DNA of 64,000 nt from Paenibacillus sp. YYML68 (GTDB lineage: Bacteria; Bacillota; Bacilli; Paenibacillales; NBRC-103111), in NCBI RefSeq assembly GCF_027923405.1, contig NZ_BQYI01000001.1, positions 3,636,501 to 3,700,500 of the forward strand. The letters are read 5' to 3'. Made by a program: the position numbers and the translations under genes. The stretch's first letter is position 1, and every line of letters begins with the position of its first letter. Below the pieces are notes generated by a model. That model had not been told where the DNA came from. It did no database searches and saw nothing but the letters and a program-made list of their open reading frames with translations. Shown here in pieces: positions 1-20,651 of this stretch.

Positions 1-1091
1 TACGGCAGCGTCAGCTGCGCCTTGCCGCCCTGGAACTTCGAGATTTCACCTGACTCCGACGAGACGGTGAAGTCATAGAGCGGTCGCCCGGCCAGCTGCT
101 CCCGGATCGCCGCTTGCTTCTCCGCAGGCATACGGCCTACAACATCCTCAACCTGCGGCTGCTCTACGGTTACGGAGATGTTATCACCCGCTTGCCGTGT
201 TATAGCCTGGAGCGCCTTGCTGTCGAATACGATACGGCCGAGCGGCGTCGTCAAGGCTACCCCTGTTTCCTTCAGCTTCGCCACATCGGCGAGCGCCGCC
301 TTCGGCAGACTGACCTGCGCCTTCGTCACCGCTTCGCCCGGCTTCACCTCAGACTTGATCTCCAGCAGCTGCAGCTTCGGCTTCCCTGTGCCTGTTGATG
401 CCGTCTTGCCTAGCTGCTCGACGAGCTTCTTCACCGCATCATGCGTAATGACCGCTGACGCTGTTCCGTTCGTCACGACCGCTTGCTGGGTTAATGTTGT
501 GCCGTTCTGAACGCCACCCGCGCCTGAATTGCTGCCCGGAGGCTGATCCGTCGGCTGGTCCGTTGATCCTTGTCCGTCACCAGGAGGCGGTGTGCTTGGA
601 GTTGTCTCAATCGTTACCGCACCAGCCGTGTGCTGCAGTCCAGCCGGAATCGACACCTCGTAGTAGCCGTTCAGATGCTCGACCGTGATCGGTGTCGTGC
701 CGATCTCGGCACCTTGCTTGATCGTGAATTTCAACGTCGCAATGTGCTTGGAGGCATGATCATGGAAGCCTTCCGTACTTACGGCCACCACATTCACTCG
801 GCCCACCTCCTGCTCCACATGGCTGACATACATCCAGCCGCTATTGAAGCCTTCGCCCTTGATTACATCAGCTTGATCCAGACTCAGCTTAGACGGGTCA
901 TACTTCAGCTTCACATTCAAGGTCTTGAGCTTGTTCGCCTCCTGGAGGACGATCTGTACAGCCGCCTCACTTCCGATGACGCCAGAAGCAGCCTGCACCT
1001 TCAGCATAGGTGGCTGCTGTGCATTCGCAGAGACGGGAAGCAAGCCCGCTCCCAAGAGCAGCGTTAGAAGCCACGCGATATATTTGTTCAT
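1..1091 (-). CDS. Secreted cohesin-domain protein, probable SLH-anchored surface anchor (3' end outside window)
   Basis: I translated this by hand on the minus strand from ATG at 1091, which has a GAGGTG ribosome site just upstream. The first 25 residues are a classical signal peptide ending in SANAQ. Residues about 28-165 form a cohesin-like beta domain (LNVKLKYDPSKLSL, then IATLKFTIK). A Pro/Gly/Ser/Thr linker follows at about 167-195. The rest resembles the pre-SLH segment of Paenibacillus surface proteins, and a similar segment precedes the SLH repeats of the 1,891-residue protein in this window. The reading frame is open at position 1, so the C-terminus is missing. SLH repeats beyond the edge are therefore a prediction, not an observation. 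It lies directly downstream of two dockerin-bearing agarases, which suggests it could receive them on the cell surface. It could instead be a free secreted cohesin protein. Confidence 0.8.
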   Translation of the reverse strand, partial: MNKYIAWLLTLLLGAGLLPVSANAQQPPMLKVQAASGVIGSEAAVQIVLQEANKLKTLNVKLKYDPSKLSLDQADVIKGEGFNSGWMYVSHVEQEVGRVNVVAVSTEGFHDHASKHIATLKFTIKQGAEIGTTPITVEHLNGYYEVSIPAGLQHTAGAVTIETTPSTPPPGDGQGSTDQPTDQPPGSNSGAGGVQNGTTLTQQAVVTNGTASAVITHDAVKKLVEQLGKTASTGTGKPKLQLLEIKSEVKPGEAVTKAQVSLPKAALADVAKLKETGVALTTPLGRIVFDSKALQAITRQAGDNISVTVEQPQVEDVVGRMPAEKQAAIREQLAGRPLYDFTVSSESGEISKFQGGKAQLTLP

Positions 1092-1115
1092 TGTGCACCT
1101 CACTTCTCATGTCTG

Positions 1116-1157
1116 GACAAACGCCTCGCACTGCGGCATGCACAGCGCGAAGCGCCT
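1116..1157 (-). terminator. Rho-independent terminator after the GH50 gene
   Basis: On the minus strand a GC-rich hairpin (GGCGCTTCGCG pairing with CGCAGTGCGAGGCG) is followed by GTTTG. It sits just past the stop codon of the GH50 gene and is almost identical to the hairpin after the GH86 gene at 4813-4853. Confidence 0.7.
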
Positions 1158-1165
1158 CTACTCGA

Positions 1166-4100
1166 TTATTGGATTAAGCCTACACTCTTCTTCAGCATAC
1201 GGAGGGCGTCCGATGTCGTTAGCTGTCCGTCACCGTCATAATCGGCCGTCTGAGTCTGCTTCTCGTTCAGCAGCTCCATATTAGCCAGATGCTTCATCAG
1301 CTTCAGGGCGTCCAGTCCGTCGACCTTGCCGTCATCGTTCACATCTCCGGCCACCACCAGCTTCTCAATCGTAATCGTTGTCGGCTGAGCGGTGAACGCA
1401 TACGGTGCTTCCGATATGAGGTTCCCCTCCAGATTCGCGAAGCTGATTGAAGCTGGAGTGGACTCCGTTATACCTGCCTTAGCCGTAAACTCTAGCGTCG
1501 CGACCGTCGTGCTGGTACCCGTAATGCCAGACTCCTTCACACCGTCGAAGACAATGGTGCCTGGAGTCGACGTGTTGCGCTCGACGAGCGAGAACGCATC
1601 TGTGAACGTCACCTGCTTCAACGTCAGCAAGCTGTGATCGTATTGGATCGTCGCCTTCAGACGGCCGAGATCCTTCACATCGCGGACCGTGACCGGCACG
1701 CTGAACGTAGCACCGGACGCTACCGACTGATTCGCTGCTGCAATAGACGGCTTCGTCGGATTTGGATTTGGATTCGGATTCGCTACAAGATGGGAGAGCG
1801 TCAGCTTATCGATGATGAAGCTGTCGCCACTCTCTGGCGCGTCCTCCCACAAGTAGAAGCTCAACGACGTAATGTTGCCGAAATCAAGACCCGACTCCGC
1901 TCCCCAGAAGCCTTCCGTCGCTCCCCAGTCTGCAGGAGAAGCCTTAAACTTATCCAACACAATTGCTCGCGATTGATTCGCATCGACGACGAAGTAGAAC
2001 GTACGCAACGCGCCGCTTGCATCAGTCACATTGACCCGTACCTGATTCGGCTTCGCCGTCGGATTCGTCACATCTGCTGTTATGGAAGGCGTCTTGCCTA
2101 GATTCCAAGGAGCAGATGGACTGATCGTTACACCTGCGTAGTCGGTATCCAGCGTCCCTACGTTGACCTTCATCGCACGCTCACCGTCTGTTGCGCCTTG
2201 TGCCTGATACTCCACCACCGCGCCCTTATAGCCGGAGACGATCGACAGATCCTCCGAAGCCTCGAAGGAGATCGTCAGCGGAGTACCCGTCTCACCGGGA
2301 CCTTCGTTATCATCGAGTCCAAGGAACTTCACATCATAAGCCTTGGCGTGCAGCTCCTTCGCCGCAGCGACCATCGCCGGGTATGGCACATCGGTTACAT
2401 CGACGAAGCCGAGGTTGTAGTTCTCGCCATCCCAAGCGCGTCCGAGTAGCGGCTGGTCGACGTATTGGAACCAGTGCGCGCCCACGAAGTAAGGGCTCTT
2501 CAGCACCGTTTTCATATAATGGAGATACTTGTCTGCGCGGTCCTGCTGATTAGCTGAAGCGGTATCGGCAACCGGACCTGTACCGAACATCCCTCTGTCA
2601 TTCGAGGCGAAGGCATACTCCCCGATAATGGTCGGCATATCGAGGGCTTCCAGATGCATCCAGTTCTCACCGTCCACATCTTCCTTATAAATGTTGAAGC
2701 TGATCACATCGACGTACTTCGCTGCAACCTCCTGCACCTCAAGGCTCGTCCCCCACTCGGCGAAGCGGGAGCCGAGGTACAGCGTATTCGGGAGTGCAGC
2801 CGTGAGCGCTGTGTCGACCGTGCTAAAATATTGCTCGGCCACAAGCTTCAGCATCGCCGAGAAGTCCGGCACCATCGCGTCTGTAATCGTACCGACCTGA
2901 TACGGCGCCTCCATCGCTGCGAACGAGGCGAAGCTTGTCCCCCACTTCGCGTTCAAGGAAGCGATGCTATCCTGGTACGTAGCCTTCAGGTGCGCGAGCA
3001 TCGCCTTCTTCGCATAGCTCGTGCTTAGCGTCGCATCTGTCTCCAGAATATGACTGATCAATGAATACTTGCTCTGTACGGCACGCGGATTGCCCCACTC
3101 CATCTCATTGTCGATATAGACGCCGAGCATCCACTCATCATTCGCAACGCCATAGGCGAGAATCTGGTCCTGAACCATCTTCTCCACGCTGTTCTTATAC
3201 TCTGGATCGAATACATCCGGGAACGGACCGATCTTCGCATGTGTGCCGACATGTGTCCAGCCGTTCGCCACATATGCGAGCTTCGTCTCATTACCCTTGC
3301 CGAAGTACAGCTCGGGGTCCGACCAGTTGCCCAGCGAGTTGAAGCCCCAATTCTTGAAACGAGCCACCGACGAAGCTCTCCACTCGTTCTTGTAATCATC
3401 GCCGTACTTGCGCTCGAGATTAGCTGCATAATGGTTGAACAGCCACCCTTCGGTCTGTCCCAGCGGTGCTCTCGCTACAAAGGTCGTGTAGTCGTAATGG
3501 TCACCGAGCGGACCGTCCTTCGCCGGAACGTCCTCGAACATGTTCTCTCTGCCGGAGATCCACGTCATCATGTCGGGAAGACGCGCGATGTCAAGTCCCG
3601 TGGAGAAGAACAAGTAGCCCTCCGGATCGACAAGCGTCCATTTCCCTTCATGCTTCGTCACCCGGAAGTGACCGGTTCCTTCCAGCTTCGGACCGTTCAG
3701 CCAGCCGCCATATTTGCTAGTCGCAAGCGGAGGCTGCGAGGATGCCAGCTGCTGAGCTTCCTGCAGCTTATAGTTCACGAGGTCTTGATCAGACTTGACC
3801 TTGCCCCCCCAGTCTATGCCTGTGTATTGCCCGTACTTATCCACCAGACCGTCCAGATAGCTCAGATCGGAGCTTGGGTCAGGAATAACCTTGATGTTAT
3901 CGAATATCAACGTCGACGGCTTCTTCGCGTACATTTGCCAAATTTGGAATTCAACGATGTTACTCGCATTCAGCGACTTCTCCCCCCAGCCATAGCCGAG
4001 CTGGTTGCCTGCTGGATTAGGCGGTAAGAAGCGCATCCCGAGATCAAGCGCGTTGGAGCCGAAGCTCATATAGAACTTAGACGTCGAGTTCGCCTTCACG

Positions 4101-4582
4101 GATGTGCCTGTACTGACCGTGGAATGCTTAACACCGTCCGCAGTCTTGTCGTCATCGACTCGCAGGAAGAAGACGACCGGCTCATTCGTCGGGTTCGTCA
4201 CCTCGAACGCCAGCGCACCGCCGCCGAAGCTCCATGGCGTCTCCGCTGTAAACTTAACCGTAGGGAAATCAGCCGCCTTATAATCGACCTTAAGCCCCTT
4301 GGACCCGTTCGTACTGTCAACGATCGATAGCGTCGCGTCTCCACCCTTAACGAACGATGGAATGACACCGCTCTCAAAATCAAGTCCTGGAAAGCTCCCC
4401 GCCGTCGTCTGCACGTTGGATACGCTCCCGCCAGTCGAGCCTGACTGCCCCTCCATCCCGTAGGCTGGAGCTGCTGCAAGTCCCATTACCATCGCCATGG
4501 AAAGCATAGCCGATGTCCATCGCTTCCCTGTTGTGCCTCTGCTAGTGCTCGTCTTGTTCTCCGTACTGCGTATAATCCTCAT
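1166..4582 (-). CDS. GH50-like beta-agarase with cohesin and dockerin domains
   Basis: Predicted secreted exo-type agarase of about 1,138 residues that would release disaccharides from agarose. I chose ATG 4582 over an upstream TTG (4612) because AGGAGG lies 12 bases before it. Domains: signal peptide 1-38 ending PAYG; galactose-binding-like module about 55-235; catalytic barrel about 295-745, starting at the family's characteristic WTLVDPEGYLFFSTG stretch; a second beta module about 765-900; an (NP)4 linker near 930; a cohesin about 940-1060; and a type I dockerin about 1075-1138 with two calcium loops (DVNDDGKVDGLD and DYDGDGQLTTSD). Likely catalytic glutamates are in YIDNEMEWG (about 490) and IIGEYAFAS (about 650). 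The family is assigned by remembered similarity to GH50; agar as substrate is supported by the neighbouring GH86 gene. A cohesin and a dockerin in one chain is unusual. Confidence 0.85.
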   Translation of the reverse strand: MRIIRSTENKTSTSRGTTGKRWTSAMLSMAMVMGLAAAPAYGMEGQSGSTGGSVSNVQTTAGSFPGLDFESGVIPSFVKGGDATLSIVDSTNGSKGLKVDYKAADFPTVKFTAETPWSFGGGALAFEVTNPTNEPVVFFLRVDDDKTADGVKHSTVSTGTSVKANSTSKFYMSFGSNALDLGMRFLPPNPAGNQLGYGWGEKSLNASNIVEFQIWQMYAKKPSTLIFDNIKVIPDPSSDLSYLDGLVDKYGQYTGIDWGGKVKSDQDLVNYKLQEAQQLASSQPPLATSKYGGWLNGPKLEGTGHFRVTKHEGKWTLVDPEGYLFFSTGLDIARLPDMMTWISGRENMFEDVPAKDGPLGDHYDYTTFVARAPLGQTEGWLFNHYAANLERKYGDDYKNEWRASSVARFKNWGFNSLGNWSDPELYFGKGNETKLAYVANGWTHVGTHAKIGPFPDVFDPEYKNSVEKMVQDQILAYGVANDEWMLGVYIDNEMEWGNPRAVQSKYSLISHILETDATLSTSYAKKAMLAHLKATYQDSIASLNAKWGTSFASFAAMEAPYQVGTITDAMVPDFSAMLKLVAEQYFSTVDTALTAALPNTLYLGSRFAEWGTSLEVQEVAAKYVDVISFNIYKEDVDGENWMHLEALDMPTIIGEYAFASNDRGMFGTGPVADTASANQQDRADKYLHYMKTVLKSPYFVGAHWFQYVDQPLLGRAWDGENYNLGFVDVTDVPYPAMVAAAKELHAKAYDVKFLGLDDNEGPGETGTPLTISFEASEDLSIVSGYKGAVVEYQAQGATDGERAMKVNVGTLDTDYAGVTISPSAPWNLGKTPSITADVTNPTAKPNQVRVNVTDASGALRTFYFVVDANQSRAIVLDKFKASPADWGATEGFWGAESGLDFGNITSLSFYLWEDAPESGDSFIIDKLTLSHLVANPNPNPNPTKPSIAAANQSVASGATFSVPVTVRDVKDLGRLKATIQYDHSLLTLKQVTFTDAFSLVERNTSTPGTIVFDGVKESGITGTSTTVATLEFTAKAGITESTPASISFANLEGNLISEAPYAFTAQPTTITIEKLVVAGDVNDDGKVDGLDALKLMKHLANMELLNEKQTQTADYDGDGQLTTSDALRMLKKSVGLIQ

Positions 4583-4812
4583 TGGGATAACCTGCCTCCT
4601 TCTAGTATTCAATAATGCTTGTGTACGAGCAGCCGGCGAACGTACTTCGCGCAGTCACTCGCCGTGGGAACGGTTACATCAGCATGTCCAAGAAATCGAA
4701 ACACCGTCCCATTAATTACAAGCCTAGTATACCTGTTATCGGGCGTTCGCCTGTACGAATATTTTAATTTCATATTGCTAAAATCTTAAGGTATTGCGCA
4801 TGTCCTTCCTAT

Positions 4813-4853
4813 TAAAAACGCTTCGCACTGCGACATGCACAGCGCGAAGCGCC
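4813..4853 (-). terminator. Rho-independent terminator after the GH86 gene
   Basis: Minus-strand hairpin GCGCTTCGCGCTG / CGCAGTGCGAAGC followed by GTTTTTAAT. It ends GH86 transcription before the GH50 gene, so GH50 probably has its own promoter in 4613-4812. That stretch is AT-rich near 4755-4800, but I saw no convincing -35/-10 pair. Confidence 0.8.
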
Positions 4854-4862
4854 CCTACTCGA

Positions 4863-7800
4863 TTATTGGATTAAGCCTACACTCTTCTTCAGCATCTTCA
4901 ACGCATCCGATGCCGTTAACACGCCATCGCCGTCATAGTCGGCAGCGGTTACTTGAGCCGTCGTTAACGTCGCGAGATTCGCCAGATGTCTCATCAGCTT
5001 CAGCGCATCCAGTCCGTCAACCTTGCCGTCATCGTTCACATCGCCCGGCGTCAGAGCTACAGTGACGGTAATCGTACCCGTCTGTGCTGTCATCGCATAA
5101 GGCACCTCGGTCTTCGTATTGGCCTCGATGCCTGTAATGGTGATGGCAGCCGTCACATCCTGCGTAATACCGGACTTCGCTGTGAATGTCAGCTCGGCAA
5201 TCGTTGCGTCGGCAGACGTAAGACCTGCTGCATTGACGCCGTCGAACGTCACCTTGCCTGGAACCGTATCGTTCGATTGAACGGTTGGCAGCTCGTTCGT
5301 GAACGTTACGCCCGCTAGTGTCAGTACATTCGAATCGTACTGTACGGTAGCCTTCAATCGGCCGAGGTCCTTCACATTCTTCAATGTAACAGGCACCTTG
5401 AACGTAGTCCCCGCCTTGACCGTCTGATTCGCCGTCCCCAGCACAGGCGTTACTGGTGGTGTTGTAGCTGCATTCGCAAGCGTAATCGCATCGAAGGCAA
5501 GTGTCGCCTTCGTCAGCGGTGCAGCATTCGGCGCGAATACATACAGCTTGACAGACTTGAGCTTCGTCGTATCGATCGCTGCTGATCTCGCGTAATATCC
5601 ATCCGTCTGCCAGCTTGCAGCCGTTACGCCGAACTCCGAGATCGAGATATTCCGCGACGCGTTCGGCGCGATGGCGAAATAATACGTGCCTTTATTGCCT
5701 GCGATATCGGCGATTTCAACGCGCAGCTGGGTGGCGACGTTTTCGAAGCTTTTCACATCGAGCTTGAATGGCTTGCCGCCCAGATTCCAGCCCTCGGCCG
5801 GAGCTGTAAAGTCAACATTGCCCGAATATTTACCGCTCGTATCCCAAGTGTAAGCCGTGAATTGGTTGAAATCGACCTTCAGTGCCTTCGAGCCGTGCGT
5901 AGCTCCCTCTGCACCTCTTGTTACCGTCATCGCCTGATTGTTATACGTATACTGAACCGCTTCCCCGTCCTCGAAGGACGTAATCGTACCCGGTGCTGGA
6001 TCAGGACCTGGCGCTGGACCTGTCTGAACGTTGCCAAGCATCACGTTGTCTAATGTAATCGTTGCCTTCGTCAGCGGAGCTGCCGTTGGCGCGAATACAT
6101 AGAAGCGAACTAATTTAATATTGGTCGTATCGATCGCCGCATTTCTCGGGAAATTCCCATCGGTCTGCCAGCTTGCCGCCGATACGCCAAACTCCGAGAT
6201 CGAGATATTGCGCGACGTGTTCGGTGCTACAGCGAAGTAATACGTGCCTTTGTTAGAGGAGCCGTCGACAATTTCGACACGTACCTGTGCAGCAGCATTT
6301 TCCATATTTTTCACATCGAACTTGATCGGCTTGCCTTCCAGATTCCAGCCCTCGTCCGTTGCGGCAAAGTCGAGGTTAGCCGAATACTTACCACTCGAAT
6401 CCCACGCATAGGAGGTGAATTGTGTGAACTCCGCCTTCAGCGCCTTCGAGCCCTTCGTTACACCGTCTGTGCCACGAGTTAACGTCAAGCCTGAACCGTT
6501 AGCGGCATAGCTGATCGGCTCTCCATCCTCGAAGGAGAAGAGGGCACCAGTAATACCGACCGACGAGCCTTTCGTCTTCGTATATTTATCGAAAATCGCC
6601 ACCGCTGTAGCCAAATTGCTCTGTACCAAAGCGATCTCATCTGCAGTTGCTAATGCATCGTTCTTCACGATATCCGCCTTCGTCAGCTCGATATTGAGCG
6701 TGTTGTGAATGTGCTTCATCACCCACTTCTGGCCGACCGACAGCTCTGCGCCTGTCTTCGACACGACCGCAGCCTGGAGCTTCGCCTTCGCATTCGCGAT
6801 CGGCTGTGCGAGCGATGTCGTTGCTGTGCCTGTCGGAGCTGCCTGCTCATAGTAATTGATGAGCTGCACGCTAGTTATATGTCCGCCATTCTCAGGAATC
6901 GTAATCTGAATCGTATTGTTCGACTGTACCTTGGCCGGATCGAGCTCGAACTCGGTGAACGTCAGAATGTCTCCTGACTTATTCGTGAACTCGAGATCCT
7001 TGGTGAAGCTTTGAGCGTCAGAGCCGCTGCCTGGGTTCACCTCGACAGCCATGTCTGTCGTAAAGCCGCTTCCATCCTTACCGAAGCCTACACGCAAGGT
7101 CGATTTCGCAAGGTTAGTCGTGGACGCTGCGACTGTGAACTCAAGCGGAGCTGCTTCGCTTGTCGGCACCAGCTCCTGCGGTGCGTAGTCAAACTTGCGC
7201 TCCCACGTCTTCGTGAATGACGGGTTGCTGTCAAGTGTAATTTCGAAGACGCTCATTTCTTGAACACGCATGTACACATTGTTCAAGTCCGCGACGTGTT
7301 CTTCCTCGTACGTCAGCTTCCCTTTTTCCAGATAGAAGTGCTTTCTCTTGACGTCTGCAATGTTAGCGTTTCCTGCAAGTACGTTAAGGTCGAGATTGAC
7401 GCGCTGCGCGTTCAGATTGTGCACGGCCACATAGACCTTATCATTGTAGCGGACCGCATTCGTGAATACGCGCTCGTTGTCCGCTTCAGACGGTAGGTAG
7501 GCACCGCGATAGTCCTTCCACATATCGACATACGCTTCGAGAGGCGTCATCTCTTCCATCAGACCATTCTTCGTCTCATTGTACTTATAGAAGGTCTGGT
7601 TCGAATTCGGTCTCCAGTTGATGATCGGATACAGATACGGTACGAGCATGCCGATCGAATCGGAATAGTTCATGAAGCGCTGCATGTAGCCATTGAAGGC
7701 AATCAGGTTCTGGTAATAGTCAATGTCCGTACCGCCTGTGTTGTACGTGCCTTCCTCCGTAATGTAGATCGGCTTCACATTGTTCGTATTCACCATATGC

Positions 7801-9380
7801 GCGTTAAGCAGGTCAAGCACGGCTTCCATTCTTCCGTTCAGGAAGCCCTTCGGATTGCTCTCTTGGTCGTGCATAATTAAGTTCGCATTCTCGTAGAAGT
7901 GGTGCGAGTACCAGTCGAGCGTATCCTTCGTATCGTCCATGAACTTCAACTGCGCTCTCGCTTCATCGAAGCCCTTCTTCTCGAAGTACATGAACGCGCT
8001 GCTCGGTCCTCCGACCAGAACATCCGGATTCTCCGCCTTGACAGCGGTTGCAACCTTATTGTGGAATTCGGACAAGTAGTCCCAAGCTTGATTCGGATGA
8101 GTCAAGAAGAACCACCATTCCTGCGGAATCGTCGATTCGTTCTTCACCTCCACATACTTCGGTCCTCTGCCGTCGAAGCGCGTGTCGATGCTCTTGATCA
8201 GCTTCGCTGCAGAATCGGCAGCCGCATCGAAGTTCGCATACGAGGGTGTTCCGAAGTGCTCCGACTCCTTCGAGTTCGGATCGGCCCACATCCATCTTGG
8301 CCATCCGTCCAAGGTCAGGACATAATCCTTGCCAACGGTAGCATACAGACTGTCGAACTTATCAATCGCTTCCTGGCTTCTCGCGTACACCTTGTTCGTC
8401 TCTGTGAAATCCGCATACCCCGGACGTGCAGCGTCCTCCTTCAAGCCGGCATTTTCCGTCATCAGCTTATAGTGGAACGCACCCCGTCCTGGTATGAAGC
8501 CCCAGTCGTTCGTCGCCTTATGATACGCTTCATCGAGAAGTGTGACGCTGCCGCTCGATTGCTCGACACCGATCGGACCACTGTTCACATGGTAGCGCTT
8601 GAATACATCCTCAGGCAGCTTGTGCACGCCATTCATGCTCAGATTCGTAAGCGCATACACATCAGCGGTGACGTTCAGAATGTCCCGGTCGCCGCCTAAT
8701 ACGGTCCAAGCCGCCGTATCGAATTGCAGCGGAACGCCTTGCTCTTCCCAGTGATAGATGCTTCGCAGCGTACCGTTGCCGACGATCTTCATCTTGTAGC
8801 CGTCATACCGTAAGTTACCGTTCTGATCCTTGACCAGCCATGGCTTCATAATGCTTTCCGTCGGATTCGATTCCTGGAAGCTCATCTTCGTGTAGTTCGT
8901 GTACAGACCTGTAATCCCGTCCTTCCAGCCGCCATTCTGGAATACGGTCCACTTCGTCTCGACACCATTCGGGTCGATGACATACAGCTCCATCGTTTGT
9001 GCAACAGAGCCCTCGAACCGCACATCGTTGAACAATCTCCAGATCCGAGCGTCGCGAGCCGGAATGTCGATGATCACTTCACCATTTACCTGCAAGTACT
9101 GTCCTTCCGGATATTGCAGGAAGTTAATTCGTTTAATCCGGCTCTCGCCATTGATACTGTTGAAATATTGAACTGCATCGTCTCCGAATTGCGACTTGTA
9201 ATAAGCCGCCGTCTCTGTGATCGTATCGAAATCAGCCTTGTCGATACGAATGTTCTCCGGTAATTCATCCTCCGAAGTCGCAGCATACCCCAAGCTGCCA
9301 GGCATGATGACAGAGGTAACGATCAACAGCATACATAACACGCTGGTCAGCGTTTGCTTCAGCTTCCTGCTCAATATCAT
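4863..9380 (-). CDS. GH86-like beta-agarase/porphyranase with FIVAR-like, cohesin and dockerin domains
   Basis: Very large secreted endo-acting galactan hydrolase of about 1,505 residues. ATG 9380 has GGGAG eight bases upstream; the TTG six bases earlier is too close to that site. Signal peptide 1-35 ends GYAA. The catalytic barrel and accessory beta domain cover about 40-780, with probable acid/base Glu in VKNEST (about 412) and nucleophile in ITEEGTYN (about 541), as in GH86. Then come a three-helix FIVAR-like stretch (about 870-945), two homologous carbohydrate-binding-like modules (about 945-1110 and 1130-1290, both starting FSFEDGE/SFEDGE), a cohesin (about 1310-1430) and a type I dockerin (1445-1505) ending LKKSVGLIQ, the same ending as the GH50 protein. 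Agarose versus porphyran cannot be decided from sequence. The upstream region holds a promoter and a cre-like site. Confidence 0.87.
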   Translation of the reverse strand: MILSRKLKQTLTSVLCMLLIVTSVIMPGSLGYAATSEDELPENIRIDKADFDTITETAAYYKSQFGDDAVQYFNSINGESRIKRINFLQYPEGQYLQVNGEVIIDIPARDARIWRLFNDVRFEGSVAQTMELYVIDPNGVETKWTVFQNGGWKDGITGLYTNYTKMSFQESNPTESIMKPWLVKDQNGNLRYDGYKMKIVGNGTLRSIYHWEEQGVPLQFDTAAWTVLGGDRDILNVTADVYALTNLSMNGVHKLPEDVFKRYHVNSGPIGVEQSSGSVTLLDEAYHKATNDWGFIPGRGAFHYKLMTENAGLKEDAARPGYADFTETNKVYARSQEAIDKFDSLYATVGKDYVLTLDGWPRWMWADPNSKESEHFGTPSYANFDAAADSAAKLIKSIDTRFDGRGPKYVEVKNESTIPQEWWFFLTHPNQAWDYLSEFHNKVATAVKAENPDVLVGGPSSAFMYFEKKGFDEARAQLKFMDDTKDTLDWYSHHFYENANLIMHDQESNPKGFLNGRMEAVLDLLNAHMVNTNNVKPIYITEEGTYNTGGTDIDYYQNLIAFNGYMQRFMNYSDSIGMLVPYLYPIINWRPNSNQTFYKYNETKNGLMEEMTPLEAYVDMWKDYRGAYLPSEADNERVFTNAVRYNDKVYVAVHNLNAQRVNLDLNVLAGNANIADVKRKHFYLEKGKLTYEEEHVADLNNVYMRVQEMSVFEITLDSNPSFTKTWERKFDYAPQELVPTSEAAPLEFTVAASTTNLAKSTLRVGFGKDGSGFTTDMAVEVNPGSGSDAQSFTKDLEFTNKSGDILTFTEFELDPAKVQSNNTIQITIPENGGHITSVQLINYYEQAAPTGTATTSLAQPIANAKAKLQAAVVSKTGAELSVGQKWVMKHIHNTLNIELTKADIVKNDALATADEIALVQSNLATAVAIFDKYTKTKGSSVGITGALFSFEDGEPISYAANGSGLTLTRGTDGVTKGSKALKAEFTQFTSYAWDSSGKYSANLDFAATDEGWNLEGKPIKFDVKNMENAAAQVRVEIVDGSSNKGTYYFAVAPNTSRNISISEFGVSAASWQTDGNFPRNAAIDTTNIKLVRFYVFAPTAAPLTKATITLDNVMLGNVQTGPAPGPDPAPGTITSFEDGEAVQYTYNNQAMTVTRGAEGATHGSKALKVDFNQFTAYTWDTSGKYSGNVDFTAPAEGWNLGGKPFKLDVKSFENVATQLRVEIADIAGNKGTYYFAIAPNASRNISISEFGVTAASWQTDGYYARSAAIDTTKLKSVKLYVFAPNAAPLTKATLAFDAITLANAATTPPVTPVLGTANQTVKAGTTFKVPVTLKNVKDLGRLKATVQYDSNVLTLAGVTFTNELPTVQSNDTVPGKVTFDGVNAAGLTSADATIAELTFTAKSGITQDVTAAITITGIEANTKTEVPYAMTAQTGTITVTVALTPGDVNDDGKVDGLDALKLMRHLANLATLTTAQVTAADYDGDGVLTASDALKMLKKSVGLIQ

Positions 9381-9490
9381 GTTCAACTCTCCCTTATTAT
9401 GAATTGCATTCCTACTGCTTAAGTACGACCTTGTATCAGAACTACATCAAGCCCCCCTCCATAACGCTCAATTGTCACTCCCGATTATGA

Positions 9491-14975: not shown

Positions 14976-17900
14976 TTAAATCAGCTCTGACTTCTGCAGC
15001 AGTCGCTGTACGATCGCCGCGACCTCAGCTCGAGTCATCGTTGCCTGCGGAGCCAACTCTGTGCTGCTGCGTCCGGAGACAAGCCCTGCCTGCAAGCAAT
15101 CGGCAATGGCTGCGAGCGCCCAAGCCGATGCAGACTCGCTATCAGCGTACGGCTTCAGAAGGTCATCCGCCGTCTTCGTGCCAAGCTTGGACTGCAGCTT
15201 CGTCATGCTCATCGCCTTCGCCAGCATCGTCATCGCTTGCTCGCGTGTTACCAAGTCTGCCGGACGGAAGGTGCCGTCCTCATAGCCGCTGATCAATCCC
15301 GAGCTATGAGCCGTCTTCACCGCGCTGTGGAACCAGTCACTGTCGGCCACGTCCGTGAACGGAGCTGAGCCGGTCTCGAGCTTCAAGCCGAGGCTCCGCA
15401 CCAGAATGGCTGCCAGCTCTGCACGTGTAATGGACTGATCTGGCGCGAACGCACCTTCACTTACGCCATTGATCACGAGTCGGGAGCCCATGTCATTGAC
15501 CGCGGACTTCGCCCAGTGCTTCTCTACGTCACTGAACTGCTTCGGATTCCAGATCACGGAGTACGTGCTGTTCGAGAAGCTGTTCACGACAGCGTAGTAT
15601 GCTCCATCCACCTTCGTAACCTTCGTCGGCACATGACGCACCGTTCCATCTGCTTCTACCACAATACTTGTTGTTACCTTCGCTGGATCTACGCCCTGCG
15701 GCAACACAATGGAGCGCTCCACGTAGCTATTGAATGTATCAACCTCTATAGACTGGTTGCCTACAACGCCGCGCACATGGAAGTCAACAGGAGGAGCTAC
15801 AAGGGTGAACGGTCCCTCCGCTGCTGATTGTTCTACCCGCTTCGTTGTCGTTGCGGGAGAGGCTGCAATCTCAATCTGGATCTTGATGTCCTGCAGAGCA
15901 AGTGTACGACCTAACTTCTGGGACAAGGAGTTAATGTTAATCTGCTGAGCAGGAAGCTTATACGTCGCATGGCTCGTCTTCAGCTCTACAACCGCCTGCT
16001 TCTGCTCCAACGCCTTCACCGTCTGGCCGTTCAGCTCGCCGATTGTGACATCGGACTTCTCCAGCACGGGAATCGTAATGACGGCCTGCTGTCCTTCAGC
16101 GGCGAGTCGGTCCTCCAGCTTCTTCTGGTCAAGCACAACCGTCGTAACCACTTGATCCTTTTGCTTCGTCGTCGTCATGATCCCTGCCGACTCTTCCTTG
16201 CCGTTGACCAGCACCTTCGCTACAGTCGCTTCATTCTTCTCTGGAGCCGTAATAGGTGCCGGGCCTGATGAAACATATTCGTCCAGCAGGACGGTGTTCG
16301 AGGCTAGCGACCCACTGCTCGTTCCCTCACTGTTCAACGCCTTGACAGTAAAGGTATACGTACCGTATGGCAAATCTGTCAACGTGAGCGGACTTGCGGC
16401 TCCGGTCACTTCCTTATTCCCTGGTGATGCCGTCACTACATAGCTCGTGATCGCACTTCCTCCGTCACCTGCCGGCGTGAAGGAGATGGTTACACTTCTC
16501 TCCCCTGCGCGTACAGCGCTGACCCCTGTCGGAGCGGCCGGAACGGTTTTCGGCGTCGCGCTTACCTGATTCGATAACCCGCTCTCACCGCCCGGGTTGA
16601 CCGCTGTCACGACGAAGTAATAGGTTGTACCGTTCGTCAAGCCAGATACGGTAGCCGAGTACACCGATGCTCCGACGGTAAGTGCCTGAGTCCCGTATGT
16701 AGCGGAGCTCACGCTGGTGTATATCGCATATCCCGTTGATCCTGCGACGGGACTCCAAGTGAGCGATACCTCGGCATCGCCATGAACTGCCGTCTGCAGC
16801 ACAGGCGCACCAGGTGCAGGCACCTGCGGCGTGGCGCTCAGCTCGTTAGATAGATTGCTGGAGCCCGCGGCGTGATTCGCTACAATGCTATAGTAATACG
16901 TCGTTCCGTTCGTTAAGCCCGTCGCTTGATACATATACACACTGCCGCTCACGGTTGCGGTTGGGAGCAGTGGAAGCTGTCCGGAGACTGTGCTTTGGTA
17001 AATATCATAGCTGGTAGCATGAGCCACTGGATTCCAGCTAAACGTTACGACCGTATCTCCCGAGTTGATCGATTGCAAGGATGGCAGCAACAGAGGGAGA
17101 ACCGTCCACTTAACATACAGTGTTGTAGTGCCGAGTATCGGCATCGTCGTGAACTGATGCGGTATGGTCAAGGACGAATCCGTATACCAGCCATCGAAGC
17201 TATAGCCTGCCTTCACAGGGGCCGTTGGCATCATAGCATACGCATTATGCGTCACCGTCTGACTCGCTACCGCCGAGCCGCCTTGCGAGTCGAAGCTGAC
17301 CGTGTAGCTGTTCAACGTCCACTTCGCGTACAGCGTCGACACGCCCAGAATCGCTGTAGTCGAGAACTGGTGCGGTGTGGTCAAGGACGAATCCGTATAC
17401 CAACCATCGAAGCTGTACCCTGCCTTCACAGGGGGCGTTGGCATCGTCGCATACCCGCCATGCGACACCGTCTGACTCGCTACTGCCGAGCCGCCTTGTG
17501 AGTCGAAGCTGACCGCGTAGCTGTTCAGCGTCCACTTCGCGTACAGCGTCGACACGCCCAGGATCGTCGTAGTCGAGAACTGGTGCGGTGTGGTCAAGGA
17601 CGAATCCGTATACCAACCGTCGAAGCTATAGCCTGCCTTCACAGGGGCTGCTGGCATCGTCGCATACCCACCATGCATCACCGTCTGACTCGCTACCGCC
17701 GAGCCGCCTTGCGAATCGAAGCTCACCGTGTAGCTGTTCAGCGTCCACTTGGCGTACAGCGTCGACACACCCAGGATCGTTGTAGTCGAGAACTGATGCG
17801 ATGTGGTCAAGGACGAATCCGTATACCAACCGTCGAAGCTATAGCCTGCCTTCACAGGGGCTGCTGGCATCGTCGCATACCCGCCATGCGTCACCGTCTG

Positions 17901-20651
17901 ACTCGCTACCGTCGAGCCGCCTTGCGAGTCGAAGCTGACCGTGTAGCTGTTGAGCGCCCACTTGGCATACAGCGTCGACACGCCCAGAATCGCCGTAGTC
18001 GAGAACTGGTGCGGTATGGTCAAGGACGAATCCGTATACCAACCATCGAAGCTGTACCATGCCTTCACTGGGGCCGTTGGCATCGTCGCATACCCGCCAT
18101 GCGTCACCGTCTGACTCGCTACCGTCGAGCCGCCTTGCGAGTCAAAGCTGACCGCGTAGCTGTTCAGCGTCCACTTCGCGTACAGCGTGGACACGCCCAG
18201 AATCGTCGTAGTCGAGAACTGGTGCGGTGTGGTCAAGGACGAATCCGTATACCAACCATCGAAGCTATAGCCTGCCTTCACAGGGGCTGCTGGCATCGTC
18301 GCATACCCGCCATGCGACACCGTCTGACTCGCTACCGCCGAGCCGCCTTGCGAGTCGAAGCTGACCGCGTAGCTGTTGAGCGCCCACTTGGCATACAGCG
18401 TCGACACGCCCAGAATCGCCGTAGTCGAGAACTGGTGCGGTGTGGTCAAGGACGAATCCGTATACCAACCATCGAAGCTGTACCCTGTCCTCTCAGGGGC
18501 CGTTGGCATCGTCGCATACCCGCCATGCGACACCGTCTGACTCGCTACTGCCGAGCCGCCTTGCGAGTCGAAGCTGACCGTGTAGCTGTTCAGCGCCCAC
18601 TTGGCGTACAGCGTCGACACGCCCAGAATCGCCGTAGTCGAGAACTGGTGCGGTGTGGTCAAGGACGAATCCGTATACCAACCGTCGAAGCTATAGCCTG
18701 CCTTCACAGGGGCCGTTGGCATCGTCGCATACCCGCCATGCGTCACCGTCTGACTCGCTACCGTCGAGCCGCCTTGCGAATCGAAGCTGACCGTGTAGCT
18801 GTTCAGCGTCCACTTCGCGTACAGCGTGGACACGCCTAGAATCGCTGTAGTCGAGAACTGGTGCGGTGTGGTCAAGGACGAATCCGTATACCAACCATCG
18901 AAGCTGTAGCCTGCCTTCACAGGGGGCGTTGGCATCGTCGCATACCCACCATGCGTCACCGTCTGACTCGCTACTGCCGAGCCGCCTTGCGAATCGAAGC
19001 TGACCGTGTAGCTGTTCAGCGTCCACTTCGCGTACAGCGTGGACACGCCCAGAATCGCCGTAGTCGAGAACTGATGCGGTGTGGTCAAGGACGAATCCGT
19101 ATACCAACCATCGAAGCTGTACCCTGCCTTCACAGGGACCGTTGGCATCGTCGCATACCCACCATGCGTCACCGTCTGACTCGCTACCGTCGAGCCGCCT
19201 TGCGAGTCGAAGCTCACCGTGTAGCTGTTCAGCGTCCACTGAGCGTACAGTGTAATGTGGCCCGTTAGTACAAACTGATTGCCCTCGGAATACGAAGTAC
19301 CGCTGCCATCTGAGGCTGTATTCCAGCCTGCGAACGTGTAGTTCGCTCTATCCAACAGTCCAGAGTTACCCGGTACGGTAATGCTGGTATTCTCATTATA
19401 GCTTGTCGGACTCGCAGGCACACTGCCTCCACTATGACCGTTGCCATCATAGATGATATGATATTGCGGCACGCTCCCTACGAGGATTCCAGCAGTGCTG
19501 CCGACTCCATTCAGAGTGAGGTCCGCATCTTTGCCGTACACGTCCCTTAAGGTTCCTAGATTCATAGCTAGTGTAGGAGCTATTGCAATCCCATCCGTAT
19601 CCAAATCGCTGCTTTGCACCGAATAGCCGAACAACAGTGTGTCTGAGTTTGAACCGGATTGGTAATAAGCATGTCTCGATTGCGAGCCTATTGTCAGCTG
19701 TATACTTGGGTTGCTTGTCACCGTGACGACCTCAGTGAACCTCACTGAAAAGGATATACTGGATCCAGTCAGATATGTACTGCTTGAAGGTATCGTAACG
19801 GCTGCAACACTCGGACGCAGCTGCTCGTAGGCATTCTCTGGATAAATAGCGCCTACATTCGCAACGTCGTGCGCATTAAAGTAAAAGGTATTAAGTATAT
19901 GCCTGCCAGGGTTATAGTAGTATTTATTATGCGAAGCGCTAAAGCCGGCATATACTGTGTTAGAAGGAAGCAATTGATCTGAGCTTATGGGATAACTCAA
20001 ATCAGGTGTCGTAGGCCGAACCGTAGAGCCACTGATATATACATTCAGAGAAGACCCGTCATAATCTACCCACAGATGCTTCTGCACATCCGACTGAGTC
20101 GAATAGGAGCTCGCAAACTGTGTGATCGGTGCGGAGGCGGCATCGGTGGTAGAGCCATCCTTACGGATGCGGAGCATATTCGCACTCGCATCTACGATTA
20201 CAGCGATGCTATTGCCGATTCCATCTGCACCGAAGCCGTTATTGTTGCTTCCGAGCGATGAAACACCATTAGTTTGAAGCACGAAGGCATAGCCCGTGTC
20301 TAAATAATACGGACTTCCTCCAAACGAACCACCGATCGAATTAACAACAGCGTACATATTGAAGCGTTTATCGTTCGACATCGTTACTGGCTGCTTCGTA
20401 AAGACAGATCCACGACCATTGTTACCAGACATAATGATCGCGCCATTCCCTGCTCCACTTCCCGTTAATAGAGATGCATTTCCATTTACAACCATATTGT
20501 TCGCTGTGAAGGTAGTCGAATCGATTTTCTTCGTAATCGCAGTCTGTAAGACAGCCGCACCAGCATACTGAGCCGGACTGACGAGCGCGAGCAGCATGCT
20601 TCCCGCGATGAGACCGCTAACTTTCCTGCGCAACCAAGCTCCTTTACTCAT
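14976..20651 (-). CDS. Giant SLH-anchored surface adhesin with lectin-like, InlB-type and Fn3 repeats
   Basis: Cell-surface protein of 1,891 residues. ATG 20651 has AAGGAG seven bases upstream. Order of parts: signal peptide 1-33; L-type lectin-like beta domain about 34-285; Ig-like segment about 290-400; one divergent InlB-type repeat about 403-472; ten near-identical 71-residue InlB (Listeria-Bacteroides) repeats about 472-1183, each with SFDSQGGS, GYSFDGWYTDSSLT and STLYAKW; three fibronectin type III domains about 1184-1460; a pre-SLH region; and three SLH repeats from about 1700 to the end (HWAKSAVNDMG, DWFHSAVKTAHSSGL, SAWALAAIADCLQAGL). SLH repeats bind the pyruvylated secondary wall polymer. 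It is 43 bases after the SGNH gene, so probably the last gene of an acylation operon. Likely role: binding of a glycan or surface; the ligand is unknown. Confidence 0.93.
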   Translation of the reverse strand: MSKGAWLRRKVSGLIAGSMLLALVSPAQYAGAAVLQTAITKKIDSTTFTANNMVVNGNASLLTGSGAGNGAIIMSGNNGRGSVFTKQPVTMSNDKRFNMYAVVNSIGGSFGGSPYYLDTGYAFVLQTNGVSSLGSNNNGFGADGIGNSIAVIVDASANMLRIRKDGSTTDAASAPITQFASSYSTQSDVQKHLWVDYDGSSLNVYISGSTVRPTTPDLSYPISSDQLLPSNTVYAGFSASHNKYYYNPGRHILNTFYFNAHDVANVGAIYPENAYEQLRPSVAAVTIPSSSTYLTGSSISFSVRFTEVVTVTSNPSIQLTIGSQSRHAYYQSGSNSDTLLFGYSVQSSDLDTDGIAIAPTLAMNLGTLRDVYGKDADLTLNGVGSTAGILVGSVPQYHIIYDGNGHSGGSVPASPTSYNENTSITVPGNSGLLDRANYTFAGWNTASDGSGTSYSEGNQFVLTGHITLYAQWTLNSYTVSFDSQGGSTVASQTVTHGGYATMPTVPVKAGYSFDGWYTDSSLTTPHQFSTTAILGVSTLYAKWTLNSYTVSFDSQGGSAVASQTVTHGGYATMPTPPVKAGYSFDGWYTDSSLTTPHQFSTTAILGVSTLYAKWTLNSYTVSFDSQGGSTVASQTVTHGGYATMPTAPVKAGYSFDGWYTDSSLTTPHQFSTTAILGVSTLYAKWALNSYTVSFDSQGGSAVASQTVSHGGYATMPTAPERTGYSFDGWYTDSSLTTPHQFSTTAILGVSTLYAKWALNSYAVSFDSQGGSAVASQTVSHGGYATMPAAPVKAGYSFDGWYTDSSLTTPHQFSTTTILGVSTLYAKWTLNSYAVSFDSQGGSTVASQTVTHGGYATMPTAPVKAWYSFDGWYTDSSLTIPHQFSTTAILGVSTLYAKWALNSYTVSFDSQGGSTVASQTVTHGGYATMPAAPVKAGYSFDGWYTDSSLTTSHQFSTTTILGVSTLYAKWTLNSYTVSFDSQGGSAVASQTVMHGGYATMPAAPVKAGYSFDGWYTDSSLTTPHQFSTTTILGVSTLYAKWTLNSYAVSFDSQGGSAVASQTVSHGGYATMPTPPVKAGYSFDGWYTDSSLTTPHQFSTTAILGVSTLYAKWTLNSYTVSFDSQGGSAVASQTVTHNAYAMMPTAPVKAGYSFDGWYTDSSLTIPHQFTTMPILGTTTLYVKWTVLPLLLPSLQSINSGDTVVTFSWNPVAHATSYDIYQSTVSGQLPLLPTATVSGSVYMYQATGLTNGTTYYYSIVANHAAGSSNLSNELSATPQVPAPGAPVLQTAVHGDAEVSLTWSPVAGSTGYAIYTSVSSATYGTQALTVGASVYSATVSGLTNGTTYYFVVTAVNPGGESGLSNQVSATPKTVPAAPTGVSAVRAGERSVTISFTPAGDGGSAITSYVVTASPGNKEVTGAASPLTLTDLPYGTYTFTVKALNSEGTSSGSLASNTVLLDEYVSSGPAPITAPEKNEATVAKVLVNGKEESAGIMTTTKQKDQVVTTVVLDQKKLEDRLAAEGQQAVITIPVLEKSDVTIGELNGQTVKALEQKQAVVELKTSHATYKLPAQQININSLSQKLGRTLALQDIKIQIEIAASPATTTKRVEQSAAEGPFTLVAPPVDFHVRGVVGNQSIEVDTFNSYVERSIVLPQGVDPAKVTTSIVVEADGTVRHVPTKVTKVDGAYYAVVNSFSNSTYSVIWNPKQFSDVEKHWAKSAVNDMGSRLVINGVSEGAFAPDQSITRAELAAILVRSLGLKLETGSAPFTDVADSDWFHSAVKTAHSSGLISGYEDGTFRPADLVTREQAMTMLAKAMSMTKLQSKLGTKTADDLLKPYADSESASAWALAAIADCLQAGLVSGRSSTELAPQATMTRAEVAAIVQRLLQKSELI
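17104..19237 (-). repeat. Ten tandem 213-bp repeats inside the SLH adhesin gene
   Basis: About 2.13 kb of direct repeats with period 213 bp, each encoding one 71-residue InlB-type unit. Differences are scattered single bases (for example T/A at the Ser-Thr/Ala-Val position and PTAP/PAAP/PTPP variants); only the last unit in the protein diverges clearly. Such sameness indicates recent expansion or gene conversion. Confidence 0.95.

Follow-up and report, generated by a model that had tools for sequence, protein, structure and literature searches.

Two agarase-like proteins of Paenibacillus sp. YYML68, encoded by neighbouring genes, each end in a cohesin followed by a dockerin, and the gene behind them encodes a cohesin-bearing surface protein. 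What are these modules for? The genes lie at the left edge of a stretch of 64,000 nucleotides, here called the window (G000:C1:3636501-3700500, in a genome of one 5.09-Mb contig). From comparison of the sequences with related loci, the best explanation, which we hold to be highly probable, is a dedicated set for non-covalent display of agar-degrading enzymes at the cell surface. It is carried by the adjacency of small anchor genes to dockerin genes (48/49), by the adjacency of dockerin-only genes to anchor genes (15/18) and by orthologous agarases which have SLH repeats on their own chain.

Agarases, their tails and the anchor protein

The features of the set are listed below, in window positions unless a genome coordinate is given.

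4863..9386 (-): GH86 agarase/porphyranase-like enzyme with C-terminal cohesin-dockerin tail (Pfam Porphyrn_cat_1, 4e-9)
5064..5426 (-): tail cohesin of GH86 (Pfam Cohesin, 9e-13; residues 1321-1441)
4893..5048 (-): dockerin of GH86 (Pfam Dockerin_1, 3e-11; residues 1447-1498)
1166..4612 (-): GH50 beta-agarase-like protein with C-terminal cohesin-dockerin tail (Pfam Agarase_CBM, 7e-25)
1448..1729 (-): tail cohesin of GH50 (Pfam Cohesin, 9e-11; residues 962-1055)
1193..1351 (-): dockerin of GH50 (Pfam Dockerin_1, 2e-10; residues 1088-1140)
1..1091 (-): anchor protein, open reading frame (ORF) 3-1103, truncated at the window's left end; start set at 1091 by eye
675..1004 (-): cohesin of the anchor (Pfam Cohesin, 2.1e-8; residues 34-143)
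G000 3635834-3636337 (-): three SLH repeats of the anchor, left of the window edge

All Pfam domain calls for the agarases and the anchor cohesin exceed the curated cut-offs. This hidden Markov model check for cohesin and dockerin agrees with a preliminary description of the same DNA, according to which the GH50 and GH86 proteins each end cohesin-then-dockerin. A chance domain match was considered and is ruled out by the E-values and by the recurrence of the modules. The two dockerins are 74% identical to each other. Spacers between cohesin and dockerin are short (21 and 28 residues), and judged by their length neither agar tail has a FIVAR-size insert at this place. A profile of the two window tails matched dockerins and no cohesin in the PDB.

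The catalytic part of the GH50 protein matches the solved GH50 agarase 4bq2 (7e-136) with the Glu of IDNE and of IIGE aligned, which we take to be the catalytic residues of GH50, and by this homology it is a predicted member of the family. That of the GH86 protein matches solved GH86 enzymes (5ta1, 7e-28; 4aw7, 8e-15), which points to a GH86 catalytic module with agarase/porphyranase-like as the probable substrate class.

In the partial protein at the window edge the preliminary description saw a signal peptide, a cohesin-like domain and a pre-SLH-like region, and it named beforehand a search for SLH repeats in the contig to the left. The cohesin stands (Pfam, 2e-8) and so, by eye, does the signal peptide, signal peptides of the whole set having been judged in this way only; the pre-SLH-like region gave no Pfam match at E<=1 within the portion inside the window. 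Left of the window the gene extends to about G000 3635804 as a frame of 600 codons without a stop, and there the three SLH repeats were found. The architecture is therefore a signal peptide (by eye), one cohesin, a linker and three SLH repeats, and the surface anchor presumed to lie beside the agarases is present, its gene directly following both of theirs. On the minus strand the ORF list gives the order GH86, GH50 and the cut anchor gene, and ORF coordinates give intervals of 250 bp between the agarase genes and 62 bp between GH50 and the anchor. The gene after the anchor, on the same strand, is GH117-like (1.7e-131 to 5ta7; 4e-128 to 4ak5, an anhydro-alpha-L-galactosidase).

In the display set proposed here, the proteins would be exported (signal peptides, by eye), the SLH repeats would bind the cell-wall polymer and the dockerin of each agarase would plug into the anchor cohesin, by which the agarase would be held at the wall. 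Oligosaccharides would be released beside the importers and processed further by the GH117 protein. The clip of dockerin and anchor cohesin would stand in for the SLH repeats which orthologous enzymes have on their own chain, and the tail cohesin would stay unoccupied and might accept another enzyme with a dockerin. That it actually accepts one is a minority view, put forward tentatively.

Orthologous agarases and paired genes in other genomes

In the order, the GH86 query found matches in 4/296 genomes, own genome counted and one match weak. The close GH86 orthologues, of genomes G290 (locus L123, 70% identity) and G244 (L105, 68%), have three C-terminal SLH repeats and no cohesin or dockerin match. 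GH50 relatives in G290 (L103, 67%) and in the metagenome-assembled genome SZUA-474 (L020, 44%) have at least one N-terminal SLH repeat; the related-locus search with the GH50 query gave one relative only. It is a classic argument for the cooperation of separate modules that relatives carry them fused. Apparently, the covalent SLH anchor of the orthologues has been replaced here by a dockerin on the enzyme and a cohesin on an SLH protein, and the enzymes with SLH in cis show what the predicted anchoring logic would be. The second GH50 genes of this genome (L106) and of G290 (L104) encode neither SLH nor cohesin-dockerin, which means that anchoring does not extend to all agarases. The former (L106:7617-9962, minus strand), with no SLH, cohesin or dockerin match, is perhaps secreted free.

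Genome G290, which belongs to another family, also holds a pair of its own at L104:7693-17999 (plus strand), where a cohesin-dockerin protein of 1623 residues, dextranase-like over one stretch and with CBM9, adjoins a cohesin-SLH anchor; the pair adjoins the GH50 gene and, by eye, a sulfatase-like ORF. In the cohesin tree the cohesin of this anchor is the nearest to the agar anchor cohesin, and the pair provides the closest relatives of the agar tail cohesins (support 100/99) and of the agar anchor cohesin (100/91).

The wider comparison covered 18 genomes, namely this one and 17 of our choice: 15 of the same family with moderate cohesin numbers, and G290 and G244, taken for their agarases. 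Surroundings were fetched for the 150 strongest cohesin rows of the 17 genomes, weaker rows being left out. The profiles used for calling cohesin, dockerin and SLH were derived from these very loci, with E limits of 0.01 (0.001 for SLH), and some cohesins or dockerins called in this way fall below Pfam thresholds, e.g. in L127. Duplicate cut ORFs were dropped before adjacency was counted, and gaps were measured between stop-to-stop frames.

In the family, dockerins occur in 74/104 genomes and cohesins in 85/104. Among small cohesin-SLH ORFs (<=760 codons; small anchors) of the 18 genomes, 48 of 49 have a dockerin ORF within 400 bp. The dockerin-adjacent ones are on the same strand in 47/48 cases, with a median stop-to-stop gap of 14 bp; 46 stand next to a cohesin-dockerin ORF and two next to a dockerin-only ORF alone. 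Such a pair is present in 16/18 sampled genomes, and the agar set, with adjacent genes, a cohesin-dockerin end and one cohesin plus three SLH repeats, follows the same pattern. Weak anchors are visible only near other cohesin genes, and this bias was addressed by a control in the 17 other genomes: anchors whose own cohesin was listed adjoin a dockerin ORF in 35/35 cases, unlisted ones in 12/13. Larger cohesin-SLH ORFs do so in 8/19. Dockerin-only ORFs adjoin a cohesin-SLH ORF in 15/18 cases, and there the anchor cohesin is the obvious partner. For cohesin-dockerin ORFs the corresponding number is 53/87, and 69/87 have a cohesin-SLH ORF within 12 kb.

Pfam was run on 13 of the 46 cohesin-dockerin proteins that are paired with small anchors; ten have a catalytic family (GH3, GH43 and pectate lyase twice each, PL8, GH2, GH42-like and amidase) and three only binding or accessory domains. 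A machine specific for agar is ruled out, as cohesin-dockerin partners of such anchors include, among others, GH3, GH43, PL1, PL8, GH2 and amidase proteins. The "agarosome" of the preliminary description is thus upheld for surface anchoring, by the SLH repeats and the adjacency, and not for an agar-only design, since the arrangement serves many enzyme families.

Dockerins flanking one anchor resemble each other (median identity 0.54, n=13) more than other dockerins of the same genomes do (0.38, n=282; p 6e-5), and 3/13 such pairs are near-copies (0.88-0.97). Similar dockerins around one anchor are expected if they have a common partner; tandem duplication would give the same. Dockerin-rich genomes were noticed as well: at E<=0.001, at least 55 dockerins were found in each of G042 and G028, 48 in G036 and 23 in G050, against four in this genome. 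A phylum-wide search with the anchor-cohesin profile hit 76/398 genomes, and as it also matches other cohesins no claim was built on this count.

Several results weigh against the display set. The agar anchor cohesin is only 24% identical to the agar tail cohesins, and searched alone it matched no solved PDB structure at E<=0.1. Promoter-like and terminator-like sites are near chance (11 against 8.0 in shuffled sequences, sd 2.6, and 8 against 9.2, respectively), so that the transcription unit is a putative one. Among the cohesin-dockerin ORFs, 34/87 do not stand beside a cohesin-SLH ORF and 18 have none within 12 kb in the fetched DNA, so an anchor nearby is not a requirement for having a tail. 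Position in a common operon could, finally, be due to the substrate alone.

What the tail cohesin may do

Anchor and tail cohesins are mostly of separate descent. Identity is 28% among anchor cohesins and 26% among tail cohesins; between the two kinds it is 18.7% within an operon (46 pairs) and 18.2% between operons. In a tree whose bootstrap had not settled, 42/50 anchor cohesins form a cluster separate from the tails (89/88, unstarred); outside this main group falls the agar anchor cohesin, with the G290 anchor (100/91) and near multi-cohesin anchors, and the agar tail cohesins fall outside the main tail clade. Against the PDB, the anchor-cohesin profile is closest to scaffoldin cohesins, e.g. 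ScaB (3l8q, 4e-9), and the main tail-cohesin profile to the NagJ cohesin (2jh2, 1.1e-16; 2ozn_A, 1.6e-16). One FIVAR-dockerin tail matches 2jnk/2ozn (5e-11). With the dockerin profile, the 60 matches listed began with two dockerins of cellulosomes and were otherwise mostly calmodulins, and this result was not used. With separate lineages, one dockerin need not fit both kinds of cohesin.

The spacer between the profile ends ranges from 7 to 257 residues and often holds a helical insert; among the 88 tails it measures <=40 residues in 37, 85-125 (FIVAR size) in 45 and more in six. Pfam names FIVAR in 4/13 scanned proteins, in L196 only upstream of the cohesin. In two of these tails the dockerin is followed by another 491 residues; L202, where an amidase comes after the dockerin, belongs here.

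The alternative that survives best is head-to-tail growth, suggested by the preliminary description, in which each dockerin binds the tail cohesin of the next copy and the first enzyme sits on the anchor, giving scaffold-free polymers of GH50 and GH86. The cohesin and the FIVAR-dockerin chain of 2ozn were solved together as a complex. As homologues of both these partners (1.6e-16; 5e-11) are fused in one tail, and many tails read cohesin-FIVAR-dockerin (45/88 with a FIVAR-size spacer), chains or a clasp would be permitted. There are also 13 one-cohesin anchors flanked by two dockerin genes, and G070 has five cohesin-dockerin ORFs with no small anchor in the fetched regions. However, a dockerin fitting both lineages of cohesin, to which most tail and anchor cohesins belong separately, is hypothetical, and the agar tails have no FIVAR-size spacer and stand outside the main tail clade. 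We regard head-to-tail chains as quite possible, with the odds somewhat against them. A little less probable still is a general display system of the family and its relatives in which the enzyme is its own scaffoldin and short chains grow from a wall-anchored first enzyme, the agar chain mixing GH86 and GH50. Five triads of a cohesin-dockerin gene, a one-cohesin anchor and a dockerin-only gene were observed, at L140, L203, L213, L219 and L196 (G025, G092, G098, G101 and G086, respectively), and their dockerin-only member could be a chain end.

The tail cohesin might instead be a mere spacer or stabiliser of the dockerin, a role which X modules play in cellulosomes, with only the anchor cohesin binding the dockerin. 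This we find rather unlikely. The 15/18 dockerin-only ORFs beside cohesin-SLH ORFs manage without a tail cohesin, and the agar tail cohesins have diverged more (45-50% identity) than the dockerins (70-78%); the agar anchor cohesins have diverged as much (43%), however, which makes the argument from divergence weak, and the main tail-cohesin family is close to the cohesin of 2ozn, an entry that also holds the FIVAR-dockerin chain.

Less plausible again is an intramolecular clasp, the protein's own cohesin binding its own dockerin to make an end that is stable or resists proteases, or else a latch which the anchor would open. Short spacers (37/88 tails) would suit it, as would identities that correlate slightly better between dockerin and tail cohesin (r 0.70) than between dockerin and anchor cohesin (r 0.60), but two pieces of the same chain should correlate more strongly in any case, and spacers of 7-257 residues, many with a helical insert, suit independent modules. 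As a proof of binding the mirror-tree was rejected altogether, because shared descent explains all three correlations, including that of anchor and tail cohesins (r 0.67). That cohesins and dockerins are shuffled surface modules without mutual binding, their neighbourhood reflecting a common substrate, is very improbable, for while isolated tails (34/87) would fit, it is hard to square with 48/49 adjacency over several substrates, with 15/18 dockerin-only ORFs and with the SLH-in-cis orthologues.

Other sets in the genome, known systems and meaning

At E<=0.001 the whole genome has nine cohesin and four dockerin matches. Two more cohesin-SLH proteins, each with two cohesins and each beside a dockerin gene, are the following.

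L015 5170-8637: two-cohesin SLH anchor, beside a 484-residue dockerin protein
L016 7753-11883: two-cohesin SLH anchor, beside an SNase-dockerin protein

In the first pair (L015:5170-10097, minus strand) the dockerin is the only Pfam match of the partner that passes the cut-off; at L107-L114, L118 and L119 there are likewise pairs of a dockerin-only protein and a cohesin-SLH anchor, the anchor having two cohesins or, once, three. In the second (L016:5017-11883, minus strand) an SNase-type nuclease with a dockerin adjoins an anchor with LTD-like, Big_5, two cohesin, fn3 and SLH domains, perhaps for nucleic-acid scavenging held at the surface. Proteins at L017 (fn3) and L018 (GH16) combine a cohesin with a weak dockerin, seen in L018 by Pfam under the cut-off (0.0055) and by our profile, in L017 by our profile only, and have no anchor in the fetched DNA. 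The dockerins of these other sets are <=29% identical to the agar dockerins, and the cohesins of these sets <=22% to the agar anchor cohesin, which suggests separate specificities of the cohesin-dockerin sets.

Beyond the GH117-like gene and one plus-strand ORF, the minus strand encodes an enolase-superfamily protein (Pfam), then a zinc-dehydrogenase-like protein and, farther along, one similar to the sugar-binding proteins of transport systems, the last two matching below the NCBIfam curated cut-off. Window positions 14976-20651 (minus strand) encode a surface protein of 1891 residues, in which Pfam names 11 stretches of Listeria-Bacteroides repeat along with fn3 and three SLH repeats.

Like SLH-anchoring scaffoldins of cellulosomes, among which OlpA is the single-cohesin type, the anchor has one cohesin and three SLH repeats, and the anchor-cohesin profile is nearest to scaffoldin cohesins. 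The GH50 and GH86 proteins likewise count as enzymes with dockerins. Unlike in cellulosomes, no large primary scaffoldin with several cohesins was found in this genome, where no protein has more than two and the agar anchor has one, and the enzymes carry a cohesin of their own. The cohesin and FIVAR-dockerin of Clostridium perfringens glycosidases (2ozn, 2jnk) are the nearest solved relatives of the main tail cohesins and of the FIVAR-dockerin tail. In C. perfringens the partners sit on different enzymes, whereas here cohesin and dockerin are on one chain and an SLH anchor is added.

The closest described case is P. guangzhouensis, also a Paenibacillus, from soil, with 28 one-cohesin-one-dockerin proteins, many with a GH domain ("monovalent adaptor"), and five SLH-anchoring scaffoldins onto which they "could dock" (PMC11557425). 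With at least one cohesin and SLH on one chain, our anchor falls under the definition of an SLH-anchoring scaffoldin given there. The available part of that account covers one genome and GH2, 20, 29, 31 and 43, with no agarases, and names neither operon pairing nor SLH-in-cis orthologues (PMC11557425). Aga1 of Paenibacillus sp. SSG-1 is an active GH86 beta-agarase with three SLH repeats and a predicted wall location (PMC5069468); likened to our enzyme by description alone, it is a distant relative, its SLH repeats are on the enzyme itself, and the word cohesin is absent from the paper (PMC5069468). The mucinolysome of Limousia is likewise a cohesin-dockerin complex directed at a non-cellulose polymer, but scaffoldin-based and from anaerobic gut bacteria; the term SLH is absent from the main text of the paper, which mentions a C. 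perfringens GH31 protein with both cohesin and dockerin (PMC12997984).

Judged by titles and the beginnings of abstracts, no agar complex built in this way appeared in the open literature searched, and neither the agar set nor the operon pairing, the lineage split or the exchange of cis for trans anchoring was found in print there. The remark of the preliminary description that no such agarosome was known holds for the agar set and not for the scheme of cohesin-dockerin enzymes and SLH anchors, proposed already for P. guangzhouensis (PMC11557425). What is new is the agar-degrading variant and the quantified operon rule; the design itself is known from that species.

Orthologous agarases, some with SLH in cis and others attached via cohesin and dockerin, offer a neat natural comparison for finding out what is gained by a non-covalent clip. 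Operon pairing points to which cohesin suits testing with which dockerin, and a genome with several apparently separate specificities could be a source of orthogonal clips for displaying proteins. Discussion of cellulosome-like assembly usually concerns anaerobes that have large scaffoldins. The minimal version would consist of an enzyme and a private anchor gene, and would serve several kinds of polysaccharide enzyme.

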